Source: an uncultured Bacteroidia bacterium
GTDB lineage: Bacteria > Bacteroidota > Bacteroidia > J057 > CALLMJ01
Direction of reading: 5' to 3'
NCBI GenBank assembly: GCA_938006875.1
Contig: CALLMJ010000100.1
Coordinates: forward strand, 1-36,407
DNA length: 36,407 bases
The notes under the pieces were generated by a model. The model was not told where the DNA came from. It did not search any database and was given only the letters and a program-made list of their open reading frames with translations. The position numbers were made by a program, and so were the translations under genes. Of this stretch, positions 19,267 to 23,436 are shown piece by piece (position 1 is the first letter of the stretch; every line of letters starts with the position of its first letter).

Positions 19267-20226
19267 TTACCTATTTATAAACTCTAACATAAACGGATTA
19301 AATTTATTTTCATGGGTTTCCATTGGACAATGCCCTGCATTAGGGATTACTTTTAACGGAACAATAGAATATTTTTCATGAAATTTTTGAGCAACTGATA
19401 ATGGTATCCAAGTATCTTTTTCTCCCCAAATTAATAGCATTTTACTTAAAACTTTGGAATAATCCATTTGAAAATCGGATTTTTGGGCAGACGTGGCTAA
19501 AATCCCTTTTGCGGCATCCGTTACCATTAAAGGTTTTAAATAACCCTTCAAAGCTTCTTCATCAGGAGTTTGCCCATAAGCAGAAGTAAGAATTTTCTGA
19601 AATTTATCAGGTTTAGCAAAATATCTTTGTAAAGCGATTTCTCCAATTCTATGAACGTAATGAGAATTTAACAACCAACGAGTCAAAAAATTAGATGGAG
19701 GATTAAAAAATAAACCATCAACACAAATAATAGAAAGGGTTTTTTGGGGATTCATTTGCCCCATAGTCAAAACCACAGAAGCACCCATAGAATGACCGAT
19801 TAAATGCCAATTTTCATAAGGGGTAATTTTCTCAGTAAGTTCCCAAGCCAATTTAGCACGATTTTCAGGAGAATGATTCCAATTGAATTTTCTTTCACTA
19901 AAACCAAAACTTGGTAAATCCATGCAAACAACTTGAAATCCACTTTGTGTTAAAGTATCAATATTTTTTCTCCATGAGAAAGTAGAACCTGAAAAACCAT
20001 GTATCATCAAAACATTTCCTTTTTTAGGTATTGTAGGTTCAAAAACTCTGTAATGAACGTTAACATCTTGAATTTTATCCATCTTTGAATTCGGAAATAA
20101 TAAAGAAGATTCAGAATAATCTAAAGTGGGTTTTAAAGGGATAAAGTAAGGAATTGCCAAAATTAAACAAATTCCACCTACTAAAATTAAACTCAACCAT
20201 TTTAAAATTTTTTTAAAATTCTTCAT
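19267..20226 (-). CDS. Membrane-anchored alpha/beta-hydrolase
   Basis: A 319-residue protein with an N-terminal membrane anchor (about 10-30) and a standard alpha/beta-hydrolase fold. The oxyanion region is MIHGFSGSTFSW, the nucleophile elbow is IGHSMGAS with Ser146, and Asp271 (WGEKDTWIP) and His299 (NAGHCPMETH) complete the triad. Its start overlaps the stop of the acyltransferase gene by 4 nt (ATGA), so the two are translationally coupled. That hints at a lipid-related substrate, but nothing in the sequence defines it. The Asp-Thr-Trp-Ile-Pro context is typical of monoacylglycerol-lipase-like and MhpC-like esterases. Confidence 0.85.
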   Translation of the reverse strand: MKNFKKILKWLSLILVGGICLILAIPYFIPLKPTLDYSESSLLFPNSKMDKIQDVNVHYRVFEPTIPKKGNVLMIHGFSGSTFSWRKNIDTLTQSGFQVVCMDLPSFGFSERKFNWNHSPENRAKLAWELTEKITPYENWHLIGHSMGASVVLTMGQMNPQKTLSIICVDGLFFNPPSNFLTRWLLNSHYVHRIGEIALQRYFAKPDKFQKILTSAYGQTPDEEALKGYLKPLMVTDAAKGILATSAQKSDFQMDYSKVLSKMLLIWGEKDTWIPLSVAQKFHEKYSIVPLKVIPNAGHCPMETHENKFNPFMLEFINR

Positions 20227-22064
20227 GAAGATTTGTTGCTATATTTATTGATAACATCGGTTGGTATGATTTTGTTATGAAAATTCATAAAATTTTTATA
20301 ACCTTCATATCCCATATATTTGATTAAAATATCGGGTTTGGTTTGAGTTAAATCTACTAAAATTAAGCCATCTAAAACATCATTAAAATCTGGGTCGACG
20401 TTAAAAGCGATAATTTTACCACCAAGGTTTAAGTATTGTTTTAATAAAACAGGGACTTTGGCACCAGAATGCTCAATATCGTTCATCAAATCTTGAACGT
20501 CTTTGATGTCTTTGATGGAAAAAGAATGATAAAATTTATCTCCTTTAAGGTACTTGAATTTTTTTCTAGGTTTCACAAAACCTTCTAGGTCTTTTAAGCT
20601 GTTATTTTCTTTTAAAAAATAAACCATTAAGTCTTTAGAAACGGCATTAAAATCATTAGATATAGAAACTGGACCGAATAAATTTTTGTATTGAGGATTT
20701 TGGGCTACATAATGCCCTATACCCATCCAAAGTAACATCAAAGGAGCAAAAGTTTTTTGATAATCTTTAACAATAAATGAACGCCCCATTTCTAATGCAG
20801 GATTAATTTCTTTGAAAAGATACTTTTTCATTTTAAATAAAGAATAAGTGTAAAGCCCTGCAATACCTTTTTCTTTTAAGATTTTATCAGCTTGACCAAT
20901 TCGATAAGCGCCTACCAATTTTTGTTTTTCTTGGTCCCAGATGCATAAATGAAGGTAATGTTCATCATAAATATCTAAATCAATAGATTTACCGCTTCCT
21001 TCTCCTACATCACGAAAAGTAATTTCACGCTGCCTCCCTATTTCACGCATAAGCATAGGTGCTTCATGAAACTCAAAACAATACACTTCAAAATTTTGAT
21101 AAGTTAATAGTTTTGTATGCTGAATATTTTCAATATCTTTTATAATTACCGAATTTTCAATATCTTGTAAAATAGGTTCTTGATTTTCAGAGGATTTGGG
21201 TAAAAAAGATTTAATTACATTGAAACTAAACTTTTGAAATTTGTATCTACCAGAAAGTAAGTAAGTTTTTGCATATAAATATTGAATTAGAGTTTCTGGG
21301 TCTTTATATTCAGCAATTTTATCAGGAGAAATAGGTTTCCCAATTTGGTAATGAATTTTTTTTACGGAAGGTCTTACAAGAGTATTGATTAGCATAGCAG
21401 TTTGTAATTTAGGATGGATGGAAGCGGCTAATTGAAAAATCCAACTATTTTTTCCATGAAAATAAAGAGGTACAACCGTAGGTTTTGTTTTTAAAATTAA
21501 TTTAGCAATGGTTGATGACCAAGGTTTTTCAGCAACTTTTCTCTGTTTCCATTTAAAAGAAGCAACTTCTCCAGAAGGAAATACTCCCAAAATTCCACCA
21601 TTTTTTAACCATAACATTGCTTCTTTAAGAGGGGCTATATTATATAGAGTAGAATCTTCCTTTTCAAAAGGATCTACACCAATTAGCTTATTTGTTACTT
21701 CTGGAATACTTTTTAATAAATAATTAGCCATAATACGATAATCCTCACGAATTTGTGATAAAAAAATTACCATAAATAAAGCATCTAATCCCCCAAACGG
21801 ATGATTACTTACAATCACTAAAGGTCCTTCAATTTTTTTTAAATTTTCAATATCTTTGGGGTTAATATGAAAATCAACACCCATTTGTTCTAATACTTTT
21901 GAAGCAAAAACATGTGCAGGAAAAATATCTTTACATAAACTATAGTGTTTATTAATTTTATCAATACCTAATGCAAATTCTACGAAGGGTTTTATTGGAA
22001 CAAAACTGTATTTCGCCCATTTACTCTTAAAAATTAGGTCAGTATCAACGAGTTTTTGCTTCAT
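20223..22064 (-). CDS. OlsF-like bifunctional acyltransferase (PlsC-like plus GNAT-like)
   Basis: A 613-residue fusion. The N-terminal half (about 60-290) is a lysophospholipid acyltransferase-like domain with VSNHPFGGLDAL (His88, Asp94) and the glycerol-binding-like VFPSGE (161-166). The C-terminal half (about 320-500) resembles the N-acyltransferase OlsB: REIGRQREITFRDVGEG, VGAYRIGQA and ALEMGRSFIV. This order matches OlsF, described as making ornithine lipids in Serratia and Flavobacterium: one half N-acylates the amino acid with a 3-hydroxy fatty acid and the other O-acylates the product. The exact amino acid head group here (ornithine, glycine or other) is unknown. A clear ribosome-binding site (GGAG, 6 nt before ATG) and a consensus promoter precede it. 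Confidence 0.85.
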   Translation of the reverse strand: MKQKLVDTDLIFKSKWAKYSFVPIKPFVEFALGIDKINKHYSLCKDIFPAHVFASKVLEQMGVDFHINPKDIENLKKIEGPLVIVSNHPFGGLDALFMVIFLSQIREDYRIMANYLLKSIPEVTNKLIGVDPFEKEDSTLYNIAPLKEAMLWLKNGGILGVFPSGEVASFKWKQRKVAEKPWSSTIAKLILKTKPTVVPLYFHGKNSWIFQLAASIHPKLQTAMLINTLVRPSVKKIHYQIGKPISPDKIAEYKDPETLIQYLYAKTYLLSGRYKFQKFSFNVIKSFLPKSSENQEPILQDIENSVIIKDIENIQHTKLLTYQNFEVYCFEFHEAPMLMREIGRQREITFRDVGEGSGKSIDLDIYDEHYLHLCIWDQEKQKLVGAYRIGQADKILKEKGIAGLYTYSLFKMKKYLFKEINPALEMGRSFIVKDYQKTFAPLMLLWMGIGHYVAQNPQYKNLFGPVSISNDFNAVSKDLMVYFLKENNSLKDLEGFVKPRKKFKYLKGDKFYHSFSIKDIKDVQDLMNDIEHSGAKVPVLLKQYLNLGGKIIAFNVDPDFNDVLDGLILVDLTQTKPDILIKYMGYEGYKNFMNFHNKIIPTDVINKYSNKSS

Positions 22065-22209: not shown

Positions 22210-23130
22210 ATGATGAACGATATATCAATCAATGATGAACAACAGGTTTTAAAAAATAAAAAACTCAATGTCTTTACTTCATTAATGATAGTTTTATGCT
22301 CTATTGTTTTAGGAATAGAAACTTATTACTCAGAAAAAATACTATTATTCGTAGTTTTAGACTATATTTTTGCAATTTATTTTTTGGTTGAAATTATTGT
22401 ACGCTTTTTTAGCTATCCATCAAAAATACAATTTTTTAAGTTTTTTTCTGTGCATAAAACAGAAAATACGCGAGAAATAAAATTCATAGAAGAAGGTATT
22501 TGGAATTGGTTTGATTTACTCATTGTTGTAATCAGTAGTATAAGCCTTTTAGAATCGTTTTTTGAACATCCAGAATTTTTGGTGGTCAGTAGATTATTTA
22601 GAGTTTTTAGGATTTTAAGATTACTAGAAGTTAGTAAAGAATTGAAAGAAGTTGAAATGAAAATTATCAGTATCATACCTACTGTGTTTTCTTTTGCTTT
22701 ATTATTAAGTGTTTTAATGTATATTTATGCTATTGTTGGAGTATTTTTATTTGCTCATCAAAAATATAATAATGCAGATTTTTCTAATTTAGAAAATTCT
22801 TTTTTGACGTTATTTCAATGTATGACATTAGAGGGTTGGGTAGATATTTTACATCAAGCCAGCGAACATAATAATAATAGTTGGTTTATAAGAGGATATT
22901 TTATTAGCTTTATTATTTTAACAGTCATTGTAAGCTTTAATGTTTTTGTTGCGGTTTTAACATCACAAGTTCAAGAGAAAATTAGTGCATCTCAACAAAA
23001 AGAAGAAGCATTAATGATGAAACAATTAAATGAAAAAATAGACGAACAACACCATGTTTATCTACAACATATTCAAATGTTAATGAATGAAATAGAAAAT
23101 ATAAAAAATCAAATCCCCAAAAAATCGTAA
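22210..23130 (+). CDS. Voltage-gated cation channel, single-domain, Ca2+-type filter
   Basis: A 306-residue subunit with the six-helix plan of bacterial voltage-gated Na+/Ca2+ channels. S3 contains WNWFDLLIVV. S4 has four arginines at every third position (Arg128, 131, 134, 137 in SRLFRVFRILRLLEV). S5-pore-S6 spans about 150-250, with filter T206-L207-E208-G209-W210-V211-D212. A charged C-terminal coiled coil (about 253-300) would hold the tetramer. NaChBac-type Na+ channels usually read LESW. A Gly at this position is known from Ca2+-selective channels (vertebrate Cav repeats I and III, and the bacterial CavMr), so Ca2+ permeation is plausible. The S2-S3 linker (about 69-98) is long for this family. 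A TACTTTTG box sits at 22164-22171. Confidence 0.9.
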   Translation: MMNDISINDEQQVLKNKKLNVFTSLMIVLCSIVLGIETYYSEKILLFVVLDYIFAIYFLVEIIVRFFSYPSKIQFFKFFSVHKTENTREIKFIEEGIWNWFDLLIVVISSISLLESFFEHPEFLVVSRLFRVFRILRLLEVSKELKEVEMKIISIIPTVFSFALLLSVLMYIYAIVGVFLFAHQKYNNADFSNLENSFLTLFQCMTLEGWVDILHQASEHNNNSWFIRGYFISFIILTVIVSFNVFVAVLTSQVQEKISASQQKEEALMMKQLNEKIDEQHHVYLQHIQMLMNEIENIKNQIPKKS

Positions 23131-23139: not shown

Positions 23140-23436
23140 ATGAATGAAACTATAAACCCTGATTTTTATGAATTAGTATCTCAAAGATGGGAGTTAGAAG
23201 ATAATCCTTCTCAATGGAGTTTATTTATTCAAACTTTAAAAAATAGAGTTATGGATTTATACCAAAATCAATCTGAAAAATTACTACAAATCTTATATCG
23301 TTTAGATGTTCCTGAAGAACAATTTATTTATGCTTCGCAATTAGAAACAATAGAAGAAACAGTTCAATATTTAACCCAAAAAATTGTAGATAGAGAATTG
23401 AAAAGGTATCATTTTAGGAAAAATTATAAGGGCTAA
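23140..23436 (+). CDS. Small uncharacterised protein
   Basis: A 98-residue, mostly helical, acidic protein (MNETINPDFYELVSQRWELE...) with no membrane segment and no motif I recognise. Helices are punctuated by Gln/Glu-rich stretches (QLETIEETVQYLTQKIVDREL). It starts 9 nt after the channel stop codon and may be co-transcribed or use its own box at 23128-23135. A regular amphipathic pattern and ordinary codon use support it as a real gene. Similar short proteins occur in Bacteroidota as unknowns. Function not inferred. Confidence 0.65.
   Translation: MNETINPDFYELVSQRWELEDNPSQWSLFIQTLKNRVMDLYQNQSEKLLQILYRLDVPEEQFIYASQLETIEETVQYLTQKIVDRELKRYHFRKNYKG

Follow-up and report, generated by a model that had tools for sequence, protein, structure and literature searches.

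CavMr of Meiothermus ruber (ZP_04038264) is, according to a 2026 paper, the only prokaryotic Cav to have been identified (PMC12919392). Its selectivity filter reads 183-TLEGWVD-189, and its PCa/PNa is above 200 (Shimomura et al. 2020, PMC7041947). High Ca2+ selectivity requires Gly4 and Val6 of this filter—the mutants G4D, G4S and V6T all select Ca2+ less well—and D7M remains Ca2+-selective, so Asp7 is dispensable (PMC7041947). The outer loop of CavMr is an extension that carries a disulfide (PMC10120453). When the CavMr filter is grafted into NavPp of Plesiocystis pacifica—a channel of the AnclNav type with Asp4 and Thr6 in its native filter, Na+-permeable and Ca2+-blocked—the product is Ca2+-selective, with a PCa/PNa of ~215 (PMC7041947). 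In NavAb, the same complete filter leaves no detectable current (PMC7041947), and S178G, which gives TLEGW, keeps PCa/PNa below 0.01 and makes Li+ the preferred ion (PMC12919392). The effect of the filter thus depends on the scaffold in which it sits: Gly4 alone is decisive in CavMr and NavPp, but does not select Ca2+ in NavAb.

The window analyzed here is a stretch of 36,407 nucleotides from an uncultured Bacteroidia bacterium. One of its genes encodes a voltage-gated channel subunit (Table 1), and the start, stop and length of this ORF agree with those of an earlier, sequence-only reading of the same DNA. The protein matches the Pfam family Ion_trans with E = 6e-42 (143.9 bits; cut-off 25). 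Its AlphaFold model (mean pLDDT 89.7, from an alignment of 70 sequences) has six helices in the membrane together with a pore helix, and its long S6 runs on into a C-terminal helix; the solved structures that match this model best are Nav1.7/NavAb chimeras, NavMs, NavAb, NavRh and NaChBac. The residues of the voltage sensor are all present: the S4 arginines, F58 and E61 in S2, and D102 in S3. Judged by its predicted fold and its sensor residues, the channel belongs to the prokaryotic voltage-gated Nav/Cav superfamily, BacNav sensu lato. Closer kinship to the eukaryotic four-domain channels was considered, since T-type Cav channels top the PDB list, and rejected: T-type scores sum several repeats, and the best single repeat reaches ~48 bits versus 98 for NaChBac alone.

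Table 1. Features of the channel gene, with coordinates in the window
Feature	Coordinates	Strand	Basis
Single-repeat six-helix voltage-gated cation channel subunit, 306 aa	22210..23130	+	Sequence, Pfam, AlphaFold, structure match
S2–S3 insertion (~residues 72–93), genus-only; modeled beta hairpin 79–84 / 87–92	22423..22488	+	Length vs 174 other channels; AlphaFold
S4 gating arginines R128, R131, R134, R137	22591..22620	+	Alignment
Selectivity filter T206-L-E-G-W-V-D212	22825..22845	+	Sequence; CavMr filter in PMC7041947; same in congener
Gly209 codon, filter position 4	22834..22836	+	Alignment
Outer P2–S6 segment (~residues 224–234), short, cysteine-free, replaces long loop of CavMr-like channels	22879..22911	+	Alignment
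Ala248, position of NaChBac G229 / CavMr G240	22951..22953	+	Alignment; G240A described in PMC7041947
C-terminal helix (~residues 256–301), unbroken from S6	22975..23112	+	AlphaFold helix 224–301

At filter position 4, where channels of the NaChBac/NavAb type have Ser and those of the TFEDWTD/TLEDWTD type have Asp, the window channel has Gly209, and TLEGWVD takes the place of the LESW filter of canonical Na+-selective BacNav channels. The sequence-only reading had located this filter correctly at residues 206–212 and had called it calcium-type; as a prediction that holds, for the seven residues equal 183-TLEGWVD-189 of CavMr. The filter is identical to one already published as a Ca2+ filter, and so is not new; domain I of Cav3.1 and of Cav3.2 has it, too. 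Two of the reasons first given for a calcium filter fare less well. Glycine as a determinant of Ca2+ selectivity is right for CavMr, where Gly4 is needed together with Val6, but not for NavAb S178G, which excludes Ca2+ and prefers Li+; and the aspartate at the last position loses its standing as a calcium feature, given the behavior of CavMr D7M.

Some 176 relatives were collected. They come from Bacteroidota taken broadly, from Campylobacterota, Gammaproteobacteria and Bdellovibrionota, and from a scan of named genomes that returned no Deinococcota. Of 174 collected channels, 84 carry Asp at position 4, 44 carry Gly, 42 Ser and 4 Asn; relatives were picked by similarity, so these counts are no unbiased census. 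Gly4 requires at least 11 changes on the first of two trees. The sequence-only reading had called native prokaryotic Ca2+ channels rare; Gly at position 4 is common. The exact string TLEGWVD, in contrast, requires only two changes on that tree, one in the window genus and one in a Bdellovibrionota genome; within this similarity-drawn set, therefore, Gly4 is not rare but the complete CavMr string is. The Bdellovibrionota channel (L193:976-2157, + strand) has a short outer loop and ~100 residues ahead of S1. Further filters turned up among the Bacteroidota. A separate group of single-repeat Ion_trans proteins (L005, L006, L007, L039 and L041) combines Gly4 with Glu7, in TIEGWFE, TVEGWYE and TLEGWIE, and forms a well-supported branch of its own on the first tree. 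In two other cases (L027:1330-3693, + strand, and L038:1-2238, – strand), with filters TFDDWSE and SFEGWSW, a voltage-gated Ion_trans channel is fused to Castor/Pollux and RCK-like domains, an arrangement that can be likened to plant nuclear channels plus a voltage sensor.

Outside the filter, the channel departs from CavMr, which was compared through its published residue numbering. From the filter Glu to the position of NaChBac G229/CavMr G240 there are 40 residues in the window channel versus 55 in CavMr (E185–G240). From the same Glu to the S6 Asn there are 36, versus ~51 in CavMr as computed from the published numbering, mostly 52–54 in the TLEDWTD/TLEGWID relatives of CavMr, and 33 in the TFEDWTD clade. 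The only cysteines are at 30 and 204, and the outer loop has none. A structural feature of CavMr, the long disulfide loop, is thus missing, and the scaffold, as read from sequence, is distinct. Ala248 was considered as a special no-inactivation trait and rejected, because Ala is common at this position in Campylobacterota and in NavAb-like channels.

The S2–S3 linker (residues 69–98) had been described as unusually long and charged, and as a possible modulator of gating. Long it is: 30–31 residues in the window genus and 10–21 in the other rows of a 176-row alignment, with a single exception (L091, 92 residues). The charge is less impressive, at 5 K/R and 4 D/E in 30. A hairpin of two strands is modeled by AlphaFold in both species of the genus, at a block pLDDT of ~83–90 for the window channel and 67–86 for its congener. 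The linker is also the fastest-evolving core segment (pN 0.39, 44% identity between the two species), and this poor conservation argues against a precise binding role; the hairpin might be a spacer, or a contact that evolves quickly.

The channel is present as a single copy per genome and, among 22 genomes of the order, is confined to the window genus. The only congener found (L002) is 80% identical and retains TLEGWVD exactly. Comparison of the two species gives a pN/pS of 0.19 overall, with pN as low as 0.033 in P1–filter–P2 and 0.014 in S6. Strong purifying selection, close to absolute in the pore and S6, marks the gene as functional and not a chance ORF. In the congener, the frame stops early in an A-rich stretch (L002:2290-2410, + strand) and the coiled tail at the C-terminus is read in a different frame; the cause is an error in the draft assembly or else a frameshift of recent date. 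Viral contigs yielded no close relatives, and only three distant ones with a profile; two IMG/VR contigs labeled viral (L211 and L212) encode TFEDWTD channels. Matches on plasmids reach only 22–33%.

None of the neighboring genes points to Ca2+. Nine bases 3′ of the channel lies an ORF of 98 aa (23140–23436, + strand) that has no Pfam or NCBIfam match. Gene order from here on is the same in the congener: channel, 98-aa ORF, NAD-epimerase, SucD. Of the 22 genomes of the order, 12 have a relative of the 98-aa ORF, and ten of these 12 have no channel; the ORF is order-wide whereas the channel is restricted to one genus, and we reject it as a partner on this account. Upstream, on the opposite strand (20223–22064, – strand), is a fused acyltransferase-GNAT protein that scores 396 bits against the ornithine-lipid synthase OlsF, under the curated cut-off of 620, and also matches the glycine-lipid enzymes GlsB/GlsA.

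From what did the channel descend? Its nearest relatives outside the genus by sequence are Campylobacterota TFEDWTD channels, at up to 36% identity; mean identity to the long-loop group that includes the relatives of CavMr is ~29–30%. TFEDWTD channels, Campylobacterota and gammaproteobacterial alike (e.g. that of Candidatus Thiovulum imperiosus, L044), are AnclNav-like, and share with the window channel a short outer loop and a similar S6; the Thiovulum channel even has the same Thr at 238 and Ala at 248. They differ in Phe2, Asp4 and Thr6, where the window channel has Leu2, Gly4 and Val6, and in having no S2–S3 insert. The phylogeny that the sequence-only reading had proposed answers the question in part. 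On the first tree, from which filter and insert columns were excluded, the window channel and its congener share a stem ~2.7 changes per site long, which the tree does not place with confidence. On the second, to which more Thiovulum-type rows were added and from which the most distant groups were removed, the pair joins the Thiovulum-type rows with support of 98/99, but AU tests reject no alternative placement in either data set.

We favor, and on these grounds only favor, descent from a gained TFEDWTD-type channel in which F2L, D4G and T6V then arose, perhaps an independent route to the filter. Placement on the Campylobacterota side would make the CavMr filter convergent in the window genus. 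The full proposition—that a filter identical to the Ca2+ filter of CavMr arose independently in a Bacteroidia genus, on a short-loop scaffold, from a TFEDWTD channel probably gained from Campylobacterota—is tentative, and we put it at less than even odds. Were it true, nature would have made changes at exactly positions 4 and 6, those swapped by experiment. The channel could instead be a true CavMr orthologue within the AnclNav long-loop clade, its filter inherited and its loop secondarily lost, a history also compatible with Ca2+ selectivity. A clade of the window pair and the long-loop group is not rejected by the AU tests (p 0.19 and 0.38), and the Bdellovibrionota channel L193, which lies inside the long-loop group on both trees, shows TLEGWVD together with a short loop. 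This history is nevertheless unlikely, given the lower identity to the long-loop group, a likelihood 3.4 to 4.2 units worse, and the loss of the outer loop that it requires.

As to function, we judge it about two-thirds probable that the protein forms a depolarization-opened, probably Ca2+-selective channel on a scaffold distinct from that of CavMr. Four subunits would assemble as a homotetramer, and depolarization would move S4 and so open S6. Gly4 would widen the outer mouth of the filter, with support from Val6, and expose the ring of Glu3 to hydrated divalent ions; Ca2+ would enter through the widened mouth. The outcome would be a depolarization-triggered influx of Ca2+ in this Bacteroidia genus, and the ion might plausibly be cleared, at least in part, by a protein of the Na+/Ca2+-exchanger family, for one ORF of the same genome has Na_Ca_ex repeats. 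The case for Ca2+ rests on the identity of the filter with that of CavMr and on the transfer of selectivity to NavPp by that filter; it is weakened by the NavAb results, which show that scaffold matters, and by a scaffold here that is not CavMr's.

On a scaffold with a short outer loop the filter might work differently, so that the voltage-gated channel does not select for Ca2+ but prefers a monovalent ion, Na+ or Li+, or is only weakly selective. The Li+ preference and Ca2+ exclusion of NavAb S178G, the failed swaps between CavMr and NavAb, and the want of CavMr's long loop all lean this way. NavAb S178G, however, has Ser6 and Met7, whereas the window channel holds the whole CavMr filter, Val6 and Asp7 included, and the identical filter worked in NavPp; we consider this reading, too, rather improbable. 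We regard it as very improbable that this small genus carries only a degenerate channel-like protein, or one that does not conduct. A very long stem branch and the broken congener frame might suggest as much; against it stand the purifying selection, the intact sensor and filter, and the location of the congener break, an A-rich part of a draft assembly.

The depolarization-opened Ca2+ channel that we prefer would likely be, by filter identity, the second native one known from bacteria. New here is the CavMr filter on a different scaffold, along with a genus-only insert. Here the whole CavMr filter occurs natively in other surroundings, so filter and scaffold can be told apart with no need for mutagenesis. 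Should the channel prove Ca2+-selective, seven filter residues would be enough outside the CavMr/NavPp group as well; otherwise, the scaffold decides the choice of ion. To the canonical BacNav channels NaChBac, NavAb and NavMs, its closest structural matches, the window channel is linked by the residues of the voltage sensor and by a C-terminal helix arranged much like the coiled tail of BacNav, and set apart by the filter—TLESWAS or TLESWSM, Na+-selective, in theirs. With CavMr it shares a single-repeat, six-helix, voltage-gated architecture and all seven residues of the filter, but it has neither the long outer loop nor the cysteine pair, is natively Ala where CavMr has Gly240, and adds a hairpin between S2 and S3.
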